Made by a program: the position numbers and the translations under genes
Notes under the pieces: generated by a model
Databases searched by the model: none
What the model saw: the letters and a program-made list of their open reading frames with translations, nothing else
What the model was told of the DNA's origin: nothing
Source: Mucilaginibacter rivuli
GTDB taxonomy: Bacteria; Bacteroidota; Bacteroidia; Sphingobacteriales; Sphingobacteriaceae
Length of the DNA: 64,000 nucleotides
Assembly: GCF_019391655.1 (NCBI RefSeq)
Contig: NZ_JAHXPQ010000006.1
Coordinates: forward strand, 186,001 to 250,000
Direction of reading: 5' to 3'
Shown here: positions 5,611 to 17,054 of the stretch, piece after piece
How positions within the stretch are numbered: the stretch's first letter is position 1
Layout of the letters: every line of letters begins with the position of its first letter

Positions 5611-6150
5611 GTACAATATTTTTATTGGTTATATGGATATTGAGGTGCACCATAGTACATCCAAATTAAACCGCTGCAAACTATCACATTAAAAAATGAA
5701 AAATGCACAAATGTTGCTCAAAGCGAAAATATAGGAGAAATATAATTTTTTAAGTGGTATGCTATTAACATTTAAAAAAGAGCAGGGTATGTTTAATGAT
5801 ATATTAATAAAACCCCAATTATTGTTTGTTTTCAAGCATTTAACGGCAATTAGCTATACAAAAAGCATGACACTACAGGATGGCACATCAAAGTTTTTAT
5901 TATAAGTTCGTAGCTACAATTATTAACCTTCTATAAATAGCAGGAACAAAAAAGCACAAAAAGTGTACGCTTAACATTTAATTATCATTTCTTATTAAGA
6001 AATGGTTAATTAACTGGGAAGATTACGCATTTTACAATTGCAACATAACCAGGCGCAGATTAAACTATTAATAAAAATAAAAAAGCGGCTTTACACCGCG
6101 TATTGAGATTACTATTACTACCACCAATTAAACTAAATGAGACCCAAAAG
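5611..6150. other. Long AT-rich intergenic region before the giant surface gene
   Basis: About 540 bases without a convincing gene on either strand. It must hold the promoter of the minus-strand gene ending the previous block and that of the giant protein gene. Visible structure: a perfect 19-base dyad at 5986-6004 and a short GCGG/CCGC hairpin around 6083-6098. No clear TTTG/TAnnTTTG pair was found at a good distance from the ATG at 6151, so a long leader is possible. Confidence 0.6.
5986..6004. promoter_or_regulatory. Perfect 19-bp dyad (9-1-9) upstream of the giant gene
   Basis: The sequence CATTTCTTA-T-TAAGAAATG is a perfect inverted repeat of two 9-base arms around a single T. It lies 147 bases before the ATG of the giant surface protein. 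Its symmetry fits a dimeric regulator site or a small hairpin. No protein is assigned to it. Confidence 0.4.
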
Positions 6151-9100
6151 ATGAAAAAACTCTACTTCTTCATTTTCATGATTGTTATGGCCTTATCGCA
6201 AACCAATGCGGTGAATGCCAAAGCCTACAAATTAGTTACCGGGAAGGTATACGGCGCACCCGTTGCGCAAACCATTACCTTCCCTGCGTTTACTGCCGCG
6301 CAAACCGCAGGCTTTGCCGATATTACTTTAACGGCAACAGCAAGTTCGGCCTTGCCCATAACTTATACCAGTAGTAATACAGCGGTAGCTACCATAGTTG
6401 CCGGTAAAATACACTATATAGGTATAGGCAGTGCCGTTATTACCGCCACACAACCAGGCGATAATGTAAACTGGCTGCCCGCTACCAGCGTTAGCCTGCC
6501 GCTTACCGTAAACCCAACCATCACTTTTGCCAACTTAGGCAATGTTGCTTTTACACCAACAGATATTACACTTGCTGCTACAAGTAACGCAGCTGTTGGA
6601 ACATGGCCTATTACCTACACCACCAGCGATGCAACAATAGCAACCATTGTTGCTGGTAAACTGCATTGCGTTGGTTTAGGTACAGTTACTATTACTGCGG
6701 CTCAACAAGGATCGGTTTATCCGGGTGTTGCTTACACTACAACTACAAAAACGGCAACAGTAACGCTTACCTTGGGTGCTGCACCGGTTATTACCTGGAC
6801 AGGATCAGCCGGTACAGCATTGCAATCTGCCGACCTGGTTTTGGGTGGTACCAGTACCAATACCAATACGGCTCAGTTCCCTATTATATATACAATAACG
6901 CCAGCCAACCCTAATGTGGCTACTATTGTAAACAACCGCCTGCACATGACGGGTACAGGTACAGTTACTATTATAGCAACGCAACCAGGCAGTGGTAAAT
7001 TTACTGATGCCGCGCCGGCCAGCGCTAATTTTGTTATAACCGCACCTGCCGCACCAACATTTAGTACTGCTTTAGGTGGTAAAGTCTTTGGCACTACGTT
7101 AGATTTTGACCCCGCTGCCACACAAGGCGGATGGGCATCAACCATTACCTATACCAGCAGCAACCCTGCATTGGCTACTATTGTTAATAATAAAATACAC
7201 CTGGTATCTGGCCCTATTACAGCGGGTACGGTTACCATAGGCGCTTCATACACCTATCCTGTAGGTACCGGCGGAACTGCATCAACAGCGGTAACCAATA
7301 ATACCACACTTGCCGCAACTGTAGCTACAGCACCAACAAGCCCGGTACTCACTTTTACTGCATTAGGTTCAAAAGCATACACTACTATTGATATCCCATT
7401 AGTAGCAACTACTACCAGTACATCGGCAACGCCAATTACATTTGCTATAACAGGTGGTAATACAGCACTTGCTACCATAGTTAACGGCAACCTGCGCCTT
7501 TTACCAATCGCGGCAGTGCCTGTGGCGCCAAACAACACAGTAATAGTTACCGCAAGCCAGGGCGGCAGTGCCTACATAGCAGGAGCTATCCCGGCACCGG
7601 TATCACAAACATTAACGCTTACTGCACCTACCATTGCTATAACAAATCCAGGTACTAAACTGACCAATGCGTCTGATTTTGCTGTTGCAACTACAGCAAC
7701 AATTCCAACTGTGCCCGTAACTGTTACCATTGATGCTGCTACCCCTGCGGGTTTAGCCACAATAATAAATGGTAATGTGCACTTACTTGGAGGTACAGGC
7801 AACGTAACATTACGTGCATCACAGTCTGCCGCGGCAATTGCCGCGGGATACCCTCCGGCAGCAGATGTAACCGCTGTGTTTGCGGTAAATGCACCTACTA
7901 ACCCTGTAATTACTTTTGCAGCCTTGGCGCCAAGGCCATATGCAAATGGTACTACAACGCTTACAGCAACTTCTACTGTTGCCTCCCCTGCTGTTACTTT
8001 TACAAGCAGTAACCCGGCTGTTGCTACTATAACATCGGCAGGTGTTTTAACCCTCACCGGTGCAGTTGCCCCTCCTAACAACTTTACCATTATTACCGCA
8101 TCGCAAGGTGGTGGTACGGGCGGAGCACCTGGCCTGGCGGCTGATGTACAAAACGTATTGACAGTTACCCCTGCTACAATCACCTTCCCTACAATCGGAA
8201 CAAAAGCATATGTTGCTTCGGATTTTGCTCCTGGTGCTACAAGTACCAATACAGCAGCATTTATTTACTATACCAGCAGTAACCCTGCTGTTGCTACAGT
8301 GGTTAACAATGTAACCGGTACATTAACCGGTGGTACGGGTTATACCAATGGCACGTATAATAACATCGCATTAGTTGGTGGCTCAGGTACCGGTGCTGTA
8401 GCTTCTACTTTGGTAGTGGCGGGCGGCATTGTAACATCTGTAACTATTAACACAACTACAGTTTATAATAACGGCGATATTTTAACATTGGCTGTACCCG
8501 GCTCAATAGGTGGTGGTAACAACTTCTCGTTTTTAGTTACCGGCTTTAACAGTGTTGTACGTTATAATAAAAACGTACCGGCTGCACCAAATAACACCAC
8601 AACAATTACAGCCTCGCAAGGTGGTGGTGTAAATGGCACGCTTACTTTAGCGCCTGATGTATCGCAGGTATTAACTGTTACAGGCCCTGTTATTACTTTC
8701 CCGCCGTTAGGCACAAAGCAATTTACCAGCACAGATATTAACCCCGGTGCCACAACAACTTACGTAAGTACTAACAGCATCACTTCTACTACTTTAGTAG
8801 CAGGCTCCGGGTATACACCGGGTACTTATTTTTCGGTGCCATTAACCGGTGGAACAGGTACAGGTGCCACAGCAAATATTACCGTTGTTGGAACAATTGT
8901 TACTTCAGTAGTATTGGTTAATCCTGGTATAGGTTACACAGTTAACAATGTTTTAACAGCCTCTAATACTTTAATAGGCGGAACCGGAAACGGATTCTCT
9001 GTTATTGTTAGCGGTATTAGCGCGGGCTTGCCAATAACTTACACCAGCAGCAACACTGCTGTTGCTACAATTGTTAATGGTTTTATACATTTTGTAGGTA

Positions 9101-12100
9101 CGGCTCCCGGTAATAATACAACTGTTATCACAGCTTCGGTGGTACCACCGGCGGGTGTTAACTTAACGGGTTATGCTTTACCGGCCCCTGTACCACAAAC
9201 GTTAACAGTTATCTCACCTACCATTACTTTCAACGCGCTTGGATCAAGAACATTCTCAACTACAGATGTTAACCCGGGTGCTACAAGTTCATTAACCAAT
9301 ACTGTTATTAACTATACCAGCAGCAACACTGCTGTTGCTACCATAAATAATGCAGGCGCTTCGGCAGGTACATTTACCCGGGGCTCTGATTATACCCCGG
9401 GAACTTATACTAACGTACCGCTTACCGGTGGTACCGGCACAGGCGCTACGGGTACCATTATAGTTGGCCCTATTAGCTCACGCACCCAAACAACGGCTGG
9501 GGTAACATCAGTAACGTTTGTATATGGCGTTCAGTCTGTTAACTTAAACAGCGCGGGCTCAGGTTATAGCGTGGGTGATGTTTTAACCTGTCCTAATACC
9601 AGCATAGGTGGAACAGGTACAGGTTTTGGTGTAACCGTTTCAGGTATTGGCTCATATCTTCATTACGTAGGCGTGGGTACAACAAACATTACCGCGTCGC
9701 AAGGTGGCGGCGCTACAGGTACTGTTAGCTTACCTGCTGATGTAACACAATCATTAACTGTAGTTGCACCAACGCTAACTTTCCCTGCGTTGGGTTCACA
9801 AAAATTACCTGTCGCAGATTTTGCCGCAGGTGCAACAAGTACACTTAATACACCTATAAGCTACACAAGCAGTACTGCTGCAGTAGCAACTGTTTTAACA
9901 AACAGCATATTACAACTTTCAAATATTTCATTTAATGGTTCGGGCTATCAAAACGGGGTTTATCCTTTAGTTCCGTTAACAGGGGGCAGCGGAACCGGTG
10001 CATTAGCAACATTAACTGTAATTGGTAATGCTGTTACAGGTGCTGTTATTACAAGCGGCGGTACAGGCTATGTAGTTGGTGATAACCTAAGTGTTTCAAA
10101 TAGCTTCCTTGGAAATACAGGCTTAGGCTTCGCAATTTCGCCAAGTGTTGTTGGAGGTGCTGTAACCGTTACAGGCTCAGGCACTACAACTATAAAAGCT
10201 ACCCAGGGCGGTGGTGCTACGGGCTTAAGCAGTGGCATCATTAGCTTTATTTTAGCTAACGGCACAGGCTACACCAATGGTTTATATACATCCGTTGCGC
10301 TATCAGGCGGCTCGGGAACAGGAGCTACTGCTAACATATTAGTATCAGGTGGTAAGATCAACACTGTGTCATTAACAAATGCCGGTACAGGTTACAAAGC
10401 AACAGATGTGCTTACCTGCGCTGCTACAAGCATTGGTGGTACAGGTGCGGGCTTTAACATAACAGTTACGGCTATTGGCCCAATTGCTGCCGATGTTTCA
10501 CAAACTTTAACCATATTGCCAAATACCATTAGTTTCCCTGCCTTAGGAACAAAAATATTAACCAATGTTGATTTTACACCTAATGCTATAAGTACTTATG
10601 GTAACGCTGCTATAACTTATACCAGCAGCAACCCTGCAGTAGCAACAATAGTGAATGGAAATATACACTACATTGCGGCAGGCACTACAAATATTACCGC
10701 ATCGCAAGGTGGCGGCGCTACAGGTACTAATGGAAGTGTGGCTGGGTTTAATACCGCAGCGGGCACTAATTATACAAATGGCACCTACACAGGAGTACCT
10801 TTAACAGCCGGAACAGGAACCGGGGCAGTAGCAACTATTATAGTAAGTGGTGGTAAAATCGCATCGGTAGCTATCACATCCGGTGGAAATGGTTACACAG
10901 TTAATGATATTTTAACTACTGCTGCCGCTAATATAGGCAATACAGGCACTGGGTTTTCTATAACGGTTACATCTACCAGCTCATTACCTGCCGATGCGGT
11001 AAGTGCATTAACCGTTGCATCTCCGGTAATTACCTTTACGGGATTATTCGGAACTAAAACAACCTTAAGCAGTGATTTTGCCCCTGGTGCTACCAGCACT
11101 ATTGCAAGCCCTGCCATAGCTTACACCAGCAGCAATACAGCTGTAGCCACAATTATCCCTGGTAGTATTTTTTCTACGGGTACAATTACGCCTGGTGTAA
11201 ACTATATTTCGGGTACTTACAATAATGTGAGCTTAACCGGCGGTACAGGTACCGGCGCAAAAGCAAACATCGTTATTATTGGCGGTGGCGTATCATCATT
11301 AACATTGGTTACCGGTGGTACAGGCTATGTAAGCGGCGATGTCATATCGGCAACACCTGCAAGTTTAGGCGGTGTTGGTACAGGCTTTAGCTTTACCGCT
11401 ACCGCTGGCCCGGTAATACACCCGGTTGGTGCGGGCACAACAACTATTGAAGCTACACAGCAAGGTAGCGCAGTTGGTACTGTGGCAGCAGCTACTGCTA
11501 CTCTCCCTGCTGACGTTACAGCATCATTAACACTAACTACCCCTGCAATTAACTTCCCTGCATTAGGAACTAAAGCATACTCAAATGTAGATATACTTCC
11601 TGGCGCAAGCAGCCCTGTTACTACTACTCCAATAGTTTATACCAGCAGCAATACAGCTGTTGCCACAATTGTAAGTACACTTACTTTAAACTCAACCTTT
11701 AATATCGGCTCGGGTTATACCAATGGCACCTATAATAATGTTACCTTATTAGGCGGCAGTGGGCTTAACGGAGCTGCAACTATAGTTGTTGCTAACGGCT
11801 CAGTCGCATCAGTAAGAGTTACCAGTAACGGAACAGGCGGAGCCTACAATGCAGGCGATGTTTTAACCGTGGCAAGCAGTGCGCTAGGCGGTACAGGTAC
11901 CGGCTTCTCGATAGGTGTTAACGGATTTGACAACTTTATTCATTTTGTTGCTGCAGGTACAACTACCATTAAAGCATCGCAAGGTGGCGGGGCAACGGGT
12001 ACAAACAGCCTTCCGGCAGATGTATCGCAGGTATTAACGGTAACCGCCCCGACTATTACATTCCCTGCCTTAGGTTCGGTTGCATACAGCAATATTGATA

Positions 12101-15100
12101 TTGCACCAGGTGCTACCAGCAGTGTAACTTTGCCTATTACTTATACCAGCGCAACACCAACAGTTGCCGTAATAACATCAGCAGGGCAAATACGCATGCT
12201 TAAAGCAGGTACAAGCATTATTACCGCATCGCAAGGTGGCGGTACTACGGGTACAGCTACAATACCTGCCGATGTATCTCAAGTATTAACTGTAACCGGC
12301 GGACCTGCCATCACTTTTGCAGCATTAGGTTCAAAACCATTATCATCTGCTGATTTTGCACCAGGCGCAACAAGCACTGTTACCACAACACCAATTACTT
12401 ACACCAGTAGTAATACAGCTGTTGCTACAATTGTTGGCGGTAACATACATTATGTAGGTTTAGGTACATCAACAATTACCGCATCACAAGGTGGTGGTGT
12501 TTCAGGTACAGCTACATTACCTCCGGATCAAACCCAGGTATTAACGGTTACCGCACCGGTAATAACCTTTACTACTACTCAATTACCTGCAACCAAGGCA
12601 ATACAAAGTGTAGATTTAGCACCGGGGGCTACAAGTACTGTTACCACTGTGCCAATTACTTATACCAGCAGCGATCCAACCATTGCCACAATTGTTAATG
12701 GCAATATCCATTTTGTTGGTGGTATTGGCAGCACTGTTATCAGGGCTACACAACAGGGTACCGCGGCTACATCTGCATTAGCTCCGGCAACGGCAACACT
12801 ACCTGCCGATGTACAGTTAACCTTAACTGTAACCGCACCGGTAATTACATTTACAACAACACAATTACCTGCAACTTTACCATTTGCAACACTCGATCGT
12901 TTACCTGGTGCAACAAGTACACTATCAAACGTTGCTATTACTTATACCAGCAGCGACCCTAACGTTGCTACTATAGTGAACGGTAATATTCACTTTGTTG
13001 GCTTAGGCTCAACAACCATTACCGCATCACAACAAACAACAGCACTTGCAGCAGGCTACTTAGCCCCTGCGGATGTATCATTACAATTGGCGGTTACCGC
13101 ACCAACGCTTACCATGACAGCTTTGGGATCGAAAGCATTTACCTCTACCGATCTGCCATTGCTGAACACTGTTACCGGTACGGTTAATCAAAGCGCACCA
13201 ATAACCTTTACCAGTAGCGACCCTACCGTTGCCACTATTGTGAACAACCAATTGCGTTATGTAGGTATTGGCAACTGTGTTATCACCGCAACACAAGCGG
13301 CGGTACCGGGTGCCGGTGCTCCGGCTGTTGCCACTTCTACATTAACTGTTACACCTGCAGTGTTAACGGTTGCACCTGCAATTGGTACAACACTTATAAA
13401 CGCGGTTGATGTTCAATTGGCTTATACCAGTACCATCTCAACATCAACATTCCCTGTAACCTATACCAGCAGCGACCCAACAGTAGCAACTGTTGTGGGT
13501 GGTTTATTGCATGTTGTGGGTGCAGGCACAGCTGTTATAACCGGTAATCAGGTAACAAATACAAATTATCAGCCATTACCTACGCTAAGTACATTAACCG
13601 TAACACAGGTACCGGTAGCCAATACACCAACTATCAGCTTCACAGCTTTAGGTACCCGTCAATACAGTAACAATGGTGATATTACACCTGTTGCATCATC
13701 AACGCTGGGTACGGCATTAACCTTTACCAGCAGTAACCCTGCGGTTGCCACTATAGTAAATGGCCTTATCCACTTAACTCCGCCAAGTATAGTTAATGGT
13801 GTGGTAACTTATCCAAACCCTAACACTGCGGTAATTACCGCAAGCCAGGGTGGCGGCATCAATGGCGTTCCGGGCTTATTACCTGCAGACGTATCAACTG
13901 TATTAACAGTTGTACCTGCCGGTATCAGCTTCCCTCCACTTGGTGTTCAAAGGTTCAACACTACCGACCTTAACCCAGGTGCAACAAGTTCATATATTAT
14001 TATCAATTCTAATAACATAGTGCAACCAATAACTTATACCAGCAGTGATCCGACGGTAGCCACCATCGTTAACGGAAATATCCATTTCGTTGGCTTGGGT
14101 ACAACTACCATTACCGCTTCTATGGGTAACGTTATTGTTCCGGATGTTAGTCAAACCATAACAGTTGTTGCCCCGGCAATTACGTTTGCGGCCACAGCTT
14201 CAAAAGCTTATTCAACTACAGATGTGGCACCAGGTGCTACAAGTACGTTAGCTACTGCCCCTATTACCTACACCAGCAGTAACCCGAGCGTGGCTACTAT
14301 TGTTAATGGCAACATTCACTTTACAGGTGTTGGACAAACTACTATAACCGCATCACAAGCTGCAGTAGGTAACTCAACCGCTCCGCTAAATGCAGCGCAG
14401 GTATTAACCGTTACTGCCCCAACACTAACATTTGCTGCAACCCGTACAATAGCCTTTACGTTAACAGATCAGGACCCGGCAGCTACAAGTACCCTGCTTA
14501 CAACACCTATTACTTATACCAGCAGTAACCCGGCTTTGGTAAGCATAGTGAACAACAAGTTACACTTTAATATTCCTACATCTAACTTAACCAACAATAC
14601 TGCTATTATTACAGCAACACAGGTTGGCGAGTCGAATGTTCCGGTTCAAACGGCTTTACAAACGTTAACTGTTACTCAAGCTTTAATATTCCCTAATGTG
14701 ATGATAAAAGCTTATGGCGATCCTGACTTTGCACCGGCTTTCTCAACATTCGGATCAGGCTATCCGGTTACTTACAGTAGTGCAACAACCACAGTTGCTA
14801 CAACCGTAACATCCAATGGTATACCTAACTCATTGGTACACATAGTTGGGCCTGGTACCAGTGTTATTACTGCATCGCAAGCAGGCGATGGTAATACTGC
14901 TGCTGCAACTAACGCAACTGCAACGCTAACTGTAACACAAGCGCCTATGACCATTACACCTAAAAATGTAACCATAGCATATGGTACTACCGGCGTACCG
15001 GTATTGCCTGTAAACTACTTCGGCTTCAAGAGCGCATCGGGCAATGCACCGTTAGATGACAGTACCAAGTTTACAACCCAACCTACCGTATATATTGTAG

Positions 15101-16074
15101 GCCGGGCCTTTAATGGCAACTACTCAACCTTACCTGTGGGTACCTATACTTTATTTGCTGCAGGTGCGGCATCAACTCTGTACACATTTACTTATGGTAC
15201 AGCTACATTAACAGTAGTTGCACCGGTACAAACATTAACCTGGGTAGGTAATGACCAATTACCGGTAGCACAACAAGCACCGATAAACAAGGCTGTTGGC
15301 GATGCTGACTTTGATCCGTTAGCGCGTAGCACAGGCGATCCGATAGTATACACCAGTTTAAACCCATCGGTGGCTACAGTTACTGCAAACGGTTTGATTC
15401 ATATTGTTGGTGCAGGTACAGCAACAATTAGAGCTACCTTAAACACGTCATCGGGTAACTATGTTAACTCTTTAACATTGCCTAACAACTTGCCTATTGT
15501 ATTAACTAAAACGTTAATTGTTGCAAAAGGCAAACAAACCATAACTGTTGCCACTATACCTTTCCTTATCAGAGGCAGCACTAACGCCTATACACCAACG
15601 GCTTCGTCATCATCAGGCCTGGCTGTTAAGGCAAGCGTGGTTGACGCGTCATTCCTAAGTGTGGTTAACAATACCTTATTACCATTGCATGTTGGTACCA
15701 CCAAGGTATCATTCACCCAGGCCGGCGATGCAAATTACGCTGCCGCGGATACTGTAAATGTGTATGTAAAAGTTATTGACCCTGCCGGTGCAGATCTGCT
15801 TGTTCACCAGGCGGTATCTCCTGATGGTGATAACATTAACGATTTCTTATACATTGAAGGTATAACCGACTACCCTGTGAACCATGTTAAAATTATCGAC
15901 CGTAATGGTGGTAATGTTTTTGAAACTGATAACTATGATAACAAAACCAATGTATTTACCGGAAAAGCCAAAAACGGAAACAAACTTCCGGGAGGTACAT
16001 ATTTCTTCATCGTTGATTACAATGTCGGAAATCAGAGGAATCATGTAACCGGTTATTTTGTGTTAAAATATTAA
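6151..16074 (+). CDS. Giant secreted Ig-like repeat protein with type IX sorting domain (3307 aa)
   Basis: The ATG at 6151 opens a clear signal peptide (M-K-K-L-Y-F-F...V-N-A), better than a TTG 48 bases upstream. After it come about 27 repeats of roughly 80-100 residues of the bacterial Ig-like BIG_2 type, with core Y-T-S-S-N-P-A-V-A-T-I-V, then G-N-I-H-F-V-G and T-I-T-A-S-Q-G-G-G. In the middle third, eight extra modules are nested in the repeats. Around residues 2930-3030 there is an MBG-like domain (A-P-M-T-I-T-P-K-N-V). The last 90 residues (V-S-P-D-G-D-N-I-N-D-F onward) are a gliding-type CHU_C, or type B T9SS, sorting domain. The protein is therefore probably secreted by T9SS and held at the cell surface as an adhesin-like fibre. 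Cysteine is nearly absent. The next gene encodes the expected PorP/SprF partner. Confidence 0.9.
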   Translation: MKKLYFFIFMIVMALSQTNAVNAKAYKLVTGKVYGAPVAQTITFPAFTAAQTAGFADITLTATASSALPITYTSSNTAVATIVAGKIHYIGIGSAVITATQPGDNVNWLPATSVSLPLTVNPTITFANLGNVAFTPTDITLAATSNAAVGTWPITYTTSDATIATIVAGKLHCVGLGTVTITAAQQGSVYPGVAYTTTTKTATVTLTLGAAPVITWTGSAGTALQSADLVLGGTSTNTNTAQFPIIYTITPANPNVATIVNNRLHMTGTGTVTIIATQPGSGKFTDAAPASANFVITAPAAPTFSTALGGKVFGTTLDFDPAATQGGWASTITYTSSNPALATIVNNKIHLVSGPITAGTVTIGASYTYPVGTGGTASTAVTNNTTLAATVATAPTSPVLTFTALGSKAYTTIDIPLVATTTSTSATPITFAITGGNTALATIVNGNLRLLPIAAVPVAPNNTVIVTASQGGSAYIAGAIPAPVSQTLTLTAPTIAITNPGTKLTNASDFAVATTATIPTVPVTVTIDAATPAGLATIINGNVHLLGGTGNVTLRASQSAAAIAAGYPPAADVTAVFAVNAPTNPVITFAALAPRPYANGTTTLTATSTVASPAVTFTSSNPAVATITSAGVLTLTGAVAPPNNFTIITASQGGGTGGAPGLAADVQNVLTVTPATITFPTIGTKAYVASDFAPGATSTNTAAFIYYTSSNPAVATVVNNVTGTLTGGTGYTNGTYNNIALVGGSGTGAVASTLVVAGGIVTSVTINTTTVYNNGDILTLAVPGSIGGGNNFSFLVTGFNSVVRYNKNVPAAPNNTTTITASQGGGVNGTLTLAPDVSQVLTVTGPVITFPPLGTKQFTSTDINPGATTTYVSTNSITSTTLVAGSGYTPGTYFSVPLTGGTGTGATANITVVGTIVTSVVLVNPGIGYTVNNVLTASNTLIGGTGNGFSVIVSGISAGLPITYTSSNTAVATIVNGFIHFVGTAPGNNTTVITASVVPPAGVNLTGYALPAPVPQTLTVISPTITFNALGSRTFSTTDVNPGATSSLTNTVINYTSSNTAVATINNAGASAGTFTRGSDYTPGTYTNVPLTGGTGTGATGTIIVGPISSRTQTTAGVTSVTFVYGVQSVNLNSAGSGYSVGDVLTCPNTSIGGTGTGFGVTVSGIGSYLHYVGVGTTNITASQGGGATGTVSLPADVTQSLTVVAPTLTFPALGSQKLPVADFAAGATSTLNTPISYTSSTAAVATVLTNSILQLSNISFNGSGYQNGVYPLVPLTGGSGTGALATLTVIGNAVTGAVITSGGTGYVVGDNLSVSNSFLGNTGLGFAISPSVVGGAVTVTGSGTTTIKATQGGGATGLSSGIISFILANGTGYTNGLYTSVALSGGSGTGATANILVSGGKINTVSLTNAGTGYKATDVLTCAATSIGGTGAGFNITVTAIGPIAADVSQTLTILPNTISFPALGTKILTNVDFTPNAISTYGNAAITYTSSNPAVATIVNGNIHYIAAGTTNITASQGGGATGTNGSVAGFNTAAGTNYTNGTYTGVPLTAGTGTGAVATIIVSGGKIASVAITSGGNGYTVNDILTTAAANIGNTGTGFSITVTSTSSLPADAVSALTVASPVITFTGLFGTKTTLSSDFAPGATSTIASPAIAYTSSNTAVATIIPGSIFSTGTITPGVNYISGTYNNVSLTGGTGTGAKANIVIIGGGVSSLTLVTGGTGYVSGDVISATPASLGGVGTGFSFTATAGPVIHPVGAGTTTIEATQQGSAVGTVAAATATLPADVTASLTLTTPAINFPALGTKAYSNVDILPGASSPVTTTPIVYTSSNTAVATIVSTLTLNSTFNIGSGYTNGTYNNVTLLGGSGLNGAATIVVANGSVASVRVTSNGTGGAYNAGDVLTVASSALGGTGTGFSIGVNGFDNFIHFVAAGTTTIKASQGGGATGTNSLPADVSQVLTVTAPTITFPALGSVAYSNIDIAPGATSSVTLPITYTSATPTVAVITSAGQIRMLKAGTSIITASQGGGTTGTATIPADVSQVLTVTGGPAITFAALGSKPLSSADFAPGATSTVTTTPITYTSSNTAVATIVGGNIHYVGLGTSTITASQGGGVSGTATLPPDQTQVLTVTAPVITFTTTQLPATKAIQSVDLAPGATSTVTTVPITYTSSDPTIATIVNGNIHFVGGIGSTVIRATQQGTAATSALAPATATLPADVQLTLTVTAPVITFTTTQLPATLPFATLDRLPGATSTLSNVAITYTSSDPNVATIVNGNIHFVGLGSTTITASQQTTALAAGYLAPADVSLQLAVTAPTLTMTALGSKAFTSTDLPLLNTVTGTVNQSAPITFTSSDPTVATIVNNQLRYVGIGNCVITATQAAVPGAGAPAVATSTLTVTPAVLTVAPAIGTTLINAVDVQLAYTSTISTSTFPVTYTSSDPTVATVVGGLLHVVGAGTAVITGNQVTNTNYQPLPTLSTLTVTQVPVANTPTISFTALGTRQYSNNGDITPVASSTLGTALTFTSSNPAVATIVNGLIHLTPPSIVNGVVTYPNPNTAVITASQGGGINGVPGLLPADVSTVLTVVPAGISFPPLGVQRFNTTDLNPGATSSYIIINSNNIVQPITYTSSDPTVATIVNGNIHFVGLGTTTITASMGNVIVPDVSQTITVVAPAITFAATASKAYSTTDVAPGATSTLATAPITYTSSNPSVATIVNGNIHFTGVGQTTITASQAAVGNSTAPLNAAQVLTVTAPTLTFAATRTIAFTLTDQDPAATSTLLTTPITYTSSNPALVSIVNNKLHFNIPTSNLTNNTAIITATQVGESNVPVQTALQTLTVTQALIFPNVMIKAYGDPDFAPAFSTFGSGYPVTYSSATTTVATTVTSNGIPNSLVHIVGPGTSVITASQAGDGNTAAATNATATLTVTQAPMTITPKNVTIAYGTTGVPVLPVNYFGFKSASGNAPLDDSTKFTTQPTVYIVGRAFNGNYSTLPVGTYTLFAAGAASTLYTFTYGTATLTVVAPVQTLTWVGNDQLPVAQQAPINKAVGDADFDPLARSTGDPIVYTSLNPSVATVTANGLIHIVGAGTATIRATLNTSSGNYVNSLTLPNNLPIVLTKTLIVAKGKQTITVATIPFLIRGSTNAYTPTASSSSGLAVKASVVDASFLSVVNNTLLPLHVGTTKVSFTQAGDANYAAADTVNVYVKVIDPAGADLLVHQAVSPDGDNINDFLYIEGITDYPVNHVKIIDRNGGNVFETDNYDNKTNVFTGKAKNGNKLPGGTYFFIVDYNVGNQRNHVTGYFVLKY
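8320..11928 (+). repeat. Eight nested Gly/Thr-rich modules inside the Ig-like repeats
   Basis: A second repeat of about 70-95 residues occurs eight times, at approximately 8320-8550, 8776-9027, 9367-9654, 9922-10155, 10240-10485, 10747-10977, 11170-11408 and 11683-11928. The shared pattern is G-x-G-Y-T-x-G-T-Y, then L-T-G-G-x-G-T-G-A, V-x-S-V, G-x-G-Y-x-x-G-D-x-L-T and G-G-T-G-x-G-F. Six copies interrupt the Ig-like unit near its I-V-N-G-N-I-H turn or just before its Y-T-S-S-N strand. Two (starting 10240 and 10747) sit after the A-S-Q-G-G-G segment. The Ig-like sequence resumes in register after each copy. Confidence 0.8.
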
Positions 16075-16157: not shown

Positions 16158-17054
16158 ATGAAAAAACATTTATACATAGCATTACTGGTTGGCTTAACCA
16201 CTCAACTATGGAGCAACAAGGCATTGGCCCAACAGCCCTTTACCTTTACACAATACATGAATAATTTAACCCCGGTTAACAATGCCTATTCAACTACAGA
16301 TAATGCCGGCAGCGTAAACCTGATAGGCCGCAGGCAATGGGTAGGTATTGATGGCGCACCATCATCATTTCTGTTAAACGGAAGTGTGCCACTTGCAGGT
16401 GTTGGCGGCAACGTAGGCCTGGTACTTTTACAGGATAAAATAGGACCTGAAAACTTAACGGAGATCAATGCTTTTTTTGCTAAGAAGGTACAGTTATCGG
16501 GCGGTAATTTTTTATCAGCATCAATTAACGCCGGTTTTAGAAACCATAAGATCACTTATTCAAGCCTTGACCCATCTGACCCTAAATTTCAAAACAGCGA
16601 TGTGAACGAAACCATAACCAACCTTGGCTTTGGCGTAATGTTATATGGCAGCAACTATTATGTTGGTTTATCACTACCCCGCTTATCATTAAACAGCGGT
16701 ACCAATACCTCGCCAAATGCCTACTATTTAACCGGCGCTTATGTTAAAGACCTGGGTACCGATTTTAAAATTAAACCATCAGTACTATTAGCCTACCAGG
16801 GTAATGCTTTGCCACTTGAATACAACTTCTCGGCAACGCTATATGTAAAAGAAGATGTTGGTGTAGGTTTTAATTACCGTAATGATAACGCTGTGGCAGG
16901 TATACTTACAGTTAATGTTGCTAAGAACATCCAGTTTGGTTATAGCTACCAGTTTAGTGTTGGTAAATACCCTGTTGGAGGTGTTAATAATACCACACAA
17001 GAACTTACTTTAAGCTATCGCTTTGGCAAAAACCTGGCTGCAAGATTTTTGTAA
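16158..17054 (+). CDS. Type IX secretion membrane protein, PorP/SprF family
   Basis: A 298-residue protein with a signal peptide ending in A-L-A-Q. It shows the PorP/SprF start P-F-T-F-T-Q-Y-M-N-N-L-T-P-V-N-A-Y and a late Y-S-Y-Q-F-S-V-G segment before Y-R-F-G at the C-terminus, typical of these outer-membrane barrels. In Flavobacterium, SprF is needed for secretion of the SprB adhesin encoded next to it. Here the gene lies 83 bases after a giant protein with a type B sorting domain, the same arrangement. Partnership is therefore inferred from context. It is probably co-transcribed with the giant gene, subject to the hairpin between them. Confidence 0.9.
   Translation: MKKHLYIALLVGLTTQLWSNKALAQQPFTFTQYMNNLTPVNNAYSTTDNAGSVNLIGRRQWVGIDGAPSSFLLNGSVPLAGVGGNVGLVLLQDKIGPENLTEINAFFAKKVQLSGGNFLSASINAGFRNHKITYSSLDPSDPKFQNSDVNETITNLGFGVMLYGSNYYVGLSLPRLSLNSGTNTSPNAYYLTGAYVKDLGTDFKIKPSVLLAYQGNALPLEYNFSATLYVKEDVGVGFNYRNDNAVAGILTVNVAKNIQFGYSYQFSVGKYPVGGVNNTTQELTLSYRFGKNLAARFL

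Follow-up and report, generated by a model that had tools for sequence, protein, structure and literature searches.

A phage-related module nested eight times among the Ig-like repeats of a Mucilaginibacter type-B T9SS protein

Results

A long Ig-repeat protein and its putative anchor

The window analysed here, a 64,000-nucleotide stretch of the Mucilaginibacter rivuli genome, encodes a very long type-B T9SS surface protein (Table 1). The bulk of its 3307 residues is a chain of BIG2-like Ig units of ∼85 residues each. Bacterial Ig-like models match these repeats with 25.3 bits (Big_2, cut-off 22.8) and 35.0 bits (HL_N-beta, cut-off 27); a Big-like model gave 24.4 bits, below its cut-off of 27. 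The C terminus carries a type-B sorting domain (Pfam PF13585, 70.9 bits, cut-off 27), and the NCBIfam model TIGR04131 narrowly missed its cut-off of 35 with 34.8 bits.

The gene directly 3′ of the fibre gene encodes a PorP/SprF-like protein, and this neighbour is conserved in the orthologues. Type-B T9SS proteins such as SprB bind a PorP-like partner, probably for anchorage (PMC9143113). In architecture the protein resembles the SprB-like type-B T9SS adhesins (PMC9143113), in being very long, repetitive and secreted, in its C-terminal CHU_C domain and in the adjoining PorP/SprF-like gene. The Mucilaginibacter repeats differ in being interrupted by phage-type modules. Genus-wide homologues of the fibre in other Mucilaginibacter have reading frames of up to 5143 aa.

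Table 1. Features of the fibre locus, in window coordinates (protein residues in brackets).
Feature	Position	Strand	Remarks
Host ORF	6103-16074	+	3323 codons counted from first TTG
T9SS type-B surface protein with Ig/BIG2-like repeats	6151-16074	+	likely start ATG 6151 (MKKLYFF...), 3307 aa
Module-bearing Ig units U2-U8, seven consecutive	8173-12048	+	from segmentation and alignment
Module 1, unit U2 site A	8314-8553 (aa 738-817)	+	in both orthologues
Module 2, unit U3 site B	8785-9021 (aa 895-973)	+	in both orthologues
Module 3, unit U4 site A	9364-9654 (aa 1088-1184)	+	internal insertion of ∼17 residues; in both orthologues
Module 4, unit U5 site A	9919-10158 (aa 1273-1352)	+	in both orthologues; folded nested in U5
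Module 5, unit U5 site C	10243-10479 (aa 1381-1459)	+	only in this genome among the three module-bearing orthologues; folded alone and nested
Module 6, unit U6 site C	10744-10983 (aa 1548-1627)	+	only in this genome among the three module-bearing orthologues; sister of module 5 (98/91)
Module 7, unit U7 site A	11176-11409 (aa 1692-1769)	+	in G029, missing in G049
Module 8, unit U8 site A	11686-11934 (aa 1862-1944)	+	in both orthologues, divergent in G049
CHU_C type-B T9SS sorting domain	15802-16062 (aa 3234-3320)	+	PF13585 match, E=1e-19
PorP/SprF-like outer-membrane protein	16158-17054	+	probable surface anchor of the fibre; PF11751, E=4e-51

Eight modules interrupt the Ig units in register

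Between positions 8314 and 11934 the Ig chain is interrupted by eight related modules of about 75–97 aa, which share 30–61% amino-acid identity. They were checked with a profile made solely from phage sequences, so that the test was not circular. This profile matched exactly the eight modules (48–91 bits) and nothing else in the fibre protein above 10 bits; the best score over 200 shuffles of the protein was 8.3. The eight nested modules proposed in a preliminary description, made from the sequence alone, were thus all recovered. That description had placed them in six successive repeats, one hit twice. They occupy seven successive units, of which U5 does carry two and the other six carry one each. 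The length of ∼75 residues given there lies at the lower end of the range, module 3 being longer (97 aa) by its internal insertion, and the modules stand at 22–58% of the protein length, which is not exactly the middle third to which they had been assigned. Tandem Repeats Finder reported nothing, the copies being too divergent.

Once freed of their modules, the Ig units each aligned over their whole length, as one domain, with a profile of module-free units (77–109 bits), whereas uncut module-bearing units scored lower and their match was split at the insert. The Ig sequence therefore resumes in register after each module, as first described. The three motifs named beforehand as insertion points were also confirmed: the I-V-N-G-N-I-H turn (site A) is used five times in the window protein, the position before I-T-Y-T-S-S-N (site B) once and the position after A-S-Q-G-G-G (site C) twice.

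Site occupancy varies among orthologues

Syntenic orthologues with seven modules each are present in an uncultured Mucilaginibacter (G029, NZ_CAITNG010000144.1; 3181 aa) and in Mucilaginibacter sp. PPCGB 2223 (G049, NZ_MDJS01000002.1; 3117 aa), while a 2055-aa version in a further genome, G007, also syntenic downstream, has none. Synteny supports the orthology of these genes. Unit-by-unit alignment of the three module bearers defined ten sites, all at only three relative places (A, B and C). Five sites are occupied in all three proteins (U2A, U3B, U4A, U5A and U8A) and five are variable: U7A is filled in the window and G029, U2C in G029 and G049, U5C and U6C in the window only, and U1A in G049 only. 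At empty sites the Ig sequence runs on in frame, without a scar. The preliminary description had held that nesting would not be real if the modules were a regular sub-part of every Ig unit in homologues; their number and place vary, and the syntenic G007 protein lacks them altogether.

The host sequence of the three bearers has diverged to 52–67% identity, with five sites still occupied in all of them, and core residues of the module are invariant. This suggests selection to keep the fold. An extra Ig unit near the N terminus (window 6514-6783, aa 138-227) is missing from both module-bearing orthologues, which indicates that the Ig units themselves are gained or lost.

The module is predicted to fold on its own

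The module is predicted to be a self-folding beta domain of ∼75 aa. Modelled alone with AlphaFold2, module 5 is confidently predicted to form a fold of its own, with six strands and one short helix (pLDDT 86.5). For unit U5 with both its modules the mean pLDDT was 89.3, the relative placement of the domains being unsure (pTM 0.68). In this model strands continue from the Ig unit into the module at site A, and a low-confidence linker joins the module at site C (pLDDT 59 at residues 151-160). A distinct fold, whose absence had been named beforehand as evidence against nesting, was thus obtained both alone and in place.

In BFVD a fold search found 11 models at E≤1e-3, their TM scores to the query being 0.68–0.86; all those with a name are phage proteins, and virion, baseplate and fibre models are among them. 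The PDB, searched by sequence and by fold (E≤1e-3), gave no significant match to the module; weak lectin and galectin rows, with E values above 0.1, were set aside. Pfam Ig models did not match the modules either, so we did not class the module with the Ig-like domains of phages.

A module abundant in phage virion proteins

The module is rare in Bacteroidota chromosomes and abundant in virion proteins of uncultured phages. Among the pattern matches listed, 362 of 600 on viral contigs were relatives of the module, against 5 of 587 on bacterial and archaeal genome contigs, figures that are indicative only. Whole genomes with any module match numbered 17 of 400 in the family and 6 of 395 in the phylum. 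For the collection scan a consensus module sequence served as query, a profile made from 28 diverse modules being too variable. This consensus had no tblastn match among cultured phages and plasmids, a search in which the low-complexity filter may mask so Gly/Thr-rich a query; one natural module as query gave a single weak cyanophage match.

A PHROG profile search with the modules matched families 438, 5342, 6005 and 4406 (baseplate wedge, tail fibre and virion structural proteins). Each of these profiles has a stretch that matches the module; the families differ from it in being whole proteins. In PHROGs, Pfam and NCBIfam we saw no family made up of just the module; no entry of the latter two matched it, and the open-access literature searched held no description of it. 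Across 80 phage loci the module lies inside 12 unrelated groups of host proteins, which include a tail sheath, an SU10-type head–tail adaptor, the phrog_3287 virion protein, a GDSL-lipase protein and fibres. A likeness to phage structural proteins, suggested in the preliminary description, is therefore upheld by the PHROG matches, the BFVD folds, hundreds of phage contigs and the nesting in virion proteins wherever these were examined.

Filled and empty sites also occur in phages. The single site in the adaptor is filled in 28 of 80 relatives and empty in 52 (a few sequences stop at a contig border). Relatives of the phrog_3287 protein (L159, L308, L315 and L346) hold about eleven copies, mostly in tandem. 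In L104 and L088, from different phages, the module occupies different places of one and the same virion protein, the other place being empty in each.

Gain, turnover and spread within the fibre

When a tree was built from the C-terminal region, the three module bearers came out as a single clade (99/97). G007 lies beside this clade, and another 17 homologues fall outside; no module was found in these 17 among the genomes that the module search covered. The modules in the fibre thus represent a gain within a module-free group, and the occupancy pattern is best read as this gain followed by turnover.

The module tree, built on 80 alignment columns, does not resolve the donor. Modules at the same site mostly group across species (U2A, U3B, U4A, U5A, U7A and U8A of the window and G029), which indicates that most insertions are older than the split of these two species. 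Modules 5 and 6, found in this genome only, are sisters at the same relative place in adjacent units. Together with the restriction to three relative places, this is consistent with recombination between Ig repeats having copied the modules, and we infer such intragenic copying as the means of spread. Comparison of the modules at the DNA level revealed no recent copy. On the other hand, the G049 module at U2C groups with modules of other Mucilaginibacter proteins (L043 and L044; 93/90), so that several acquisitions are possible, and the one at U1A groups with phage modules (93/73). A single origin of all modules in the Ig proteins is compatible with the data (p-AU 0.245), being neither shown nor rejected. 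The proteins of L043 (5868-10373) and L044 (5622-9887), from two other Mucilaginibacter, are long and secreted-looking and hold one module each; that of L043 has a weak T9SS sorting-domain match.

The GC content of the modules equals that of the gene (45.6% versus 44.6%), so the transfer is old or left no compositional trace, and a recent import was rejected. Transposition was likewise set aside. In the adaptor, filled and empty forms with 82–89% DNA identity have replaced junctions and no target duplication; the bacterial sites are too diverged to tell. As neither terminal repeats nor target-site duplications were seen, homologous recombination is the better reading of the spread. The term mobile protein module used at the outset fits in the evolutionary sense, but not as a transposing element with a DNA signature.

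Prophages of the same genus carry the module

In four Mucilaginibacter genomes a protein of 223–229 aa consists of a phrog_38330 domain split by one module at one site, and at the two loci examined its gene lies beside that of a prophage major head protein. A fifth genome has a module-free phrog_38330 gene (131 aa) next to a 362-aa gene in the head-protein position, which indicates that prophages of this genus gain and lose the module. This capsid-region protein shares with the fibre the nested arrangement, and differs in being a short prophage protein with a single copy. The prophage copies make phage-to-host transfer plausible, although they do not prove its direction.

Discussion

The explanation that we consider probable is that a virion module was gained from a phage, spread by recombination among Ig repeats and now forms lobes along the sides of an adhesive fibre. 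The module would be mainly a phage virion domain, typically lodged within host proteins that are unrelated to one another. An ancestor of the three Mucilaginibacter lineages would have gained it, with a phage or prophage as the most plausible source, in one Ig repeat of an SprB-like type-B T9SS fibre. Recombination between neighbouring repeats may then have copied, moved and lost it at a few permissive loops, leading to 7–8 copies per protein. The Ig units would form a fibre on the cell, held by the adjacent PorP/SprF-like protein, with the modules protruding sideways as extra adhesive or spacing lobes. A fibre with side lobes, as envisaged in the preliminary description, fits the structural model.

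A less likely alternative is that phages donated the module several times independently, each time into a loop whose structure permits insertion, instead of once with copying afterwards. In its favour are the lack of support for a single-origin clade, the two G049 groupings and the same nested-insertion behaviour in many phage host proteins. However, all ten cases fall at three relative sites, the sister modules 5 and 6 sit in neighbouring units, and the module is otherwise so rare in Bacteroidota genomes that many hits in one gene are not to be expected. That the module was born in bacterial surface proteins and was taken from there by phages is very improbable: short relatives lie nested within SusD-like proteins, and T9SS-sorted proteins contain full ones, but the fibre modules of Mucilaginibacter are a gain within a module-free group, and genomes seldom hold the module compared with hundreds of phage contigs and at least 12 unrelated host-protein groups.

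We also doubt that the module is neutral filler in insertion-tolerant loops, binding no ligand and changing at most length or flexibility. The variation of its number and place between species and the low-confidence linker at site C would suit such a role; the five sites kept in three species despite the host divergence, and the invariant core residues, argue against it. The notion that the inserts are a divergent sub-part of the Ig units, which they resemble in being beta and Thr/Gly-rich, is refuted to the point of deserving almost no credence, as the units match the Ig profile from end to end and with higher scores once the inserts are cut out, orthologous units without inserts exist, and the module is predicted to fold by itself and is related to modules of unrelated phage proteins. 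For the phage-derived module of the preferred explanation, location and phage setting suggest that it most likely adds binding surface, as lateral lobes on an anchored fibre, a role also assumed for the accessory domains of phages.

Domain shuffling is well known in phages and bacterial adhesins, mostly as end-to-end addition. The Ig-like domains of phage virion proteins are reportedly promiscuous (Fraser et al. in 2006, cited in PMC10684548). Promiscuous beta modules common to phages and bacteria include Ig-like, PKD and BACON domains (PMC10385173, PMC13370021). The present module resembles the phage Ig-like domains (Hoc, PMC10385173; modular adhesins, PMC13370021) as a small beta domain with patchy presence in unrelated virion proteins; those domains are thought to be surface-exposed and adhesive, and comparable types are shared with Bacteroidota (PMC10385173, PMC13370021). 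It differs in having no significant Ig-fold match in Pfam or the PDB, and in being inserted within the host protein, here inside Ig domains themselves, where Ig-like domains are appended. Promiscuous modules of this kind being already known, what is new is the nesting habit and the multiplication inside Ig repeats.

An uncatalogued module thus sits inside a dozen unrelated groups of phage proteins and, in eight copies, within the repeats of a bacterial fibre, which brings to attention a common phage module with no Pfam or NCBIfam entry or solved structure. Filled and empty sites among relatives allow direct tests of how nested domains arise and spread, and a concrete path leading from phage particles to the surfaces of bacteria comes into view. 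More tentatively, and with less than even confidence, we suggest an undescribed domain family with no solved fold that occurs mainly as an in-frame guest of other proteins, circulates between phage particles and bacterial surface proteins and serves the same sticking function in both. If this is true, the bacterium would be arming its adhesin with parts of phage particles, for which a prophage of the same genus may be the source.

A functional hint, suggestive only, comes from a distant variant in SusD-like glycan-binding proteins. In these proteins several Sphingobacteriaceae carry, nested after the motif N-L-V-R-x-R, a short relative of the module that comprises two repeats (G-x-G-Y-T-x-A-P-T-V-T-I-S-G-G-G-G-S-G-A) (L049:5771-7996, on contig C8 of this genome; L050:5022-6923; also L177). 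Further single modules occur in two phage-like-looking proteins of Sphingobacteriaceae (L173, 765 aa; L175, 257 aa).
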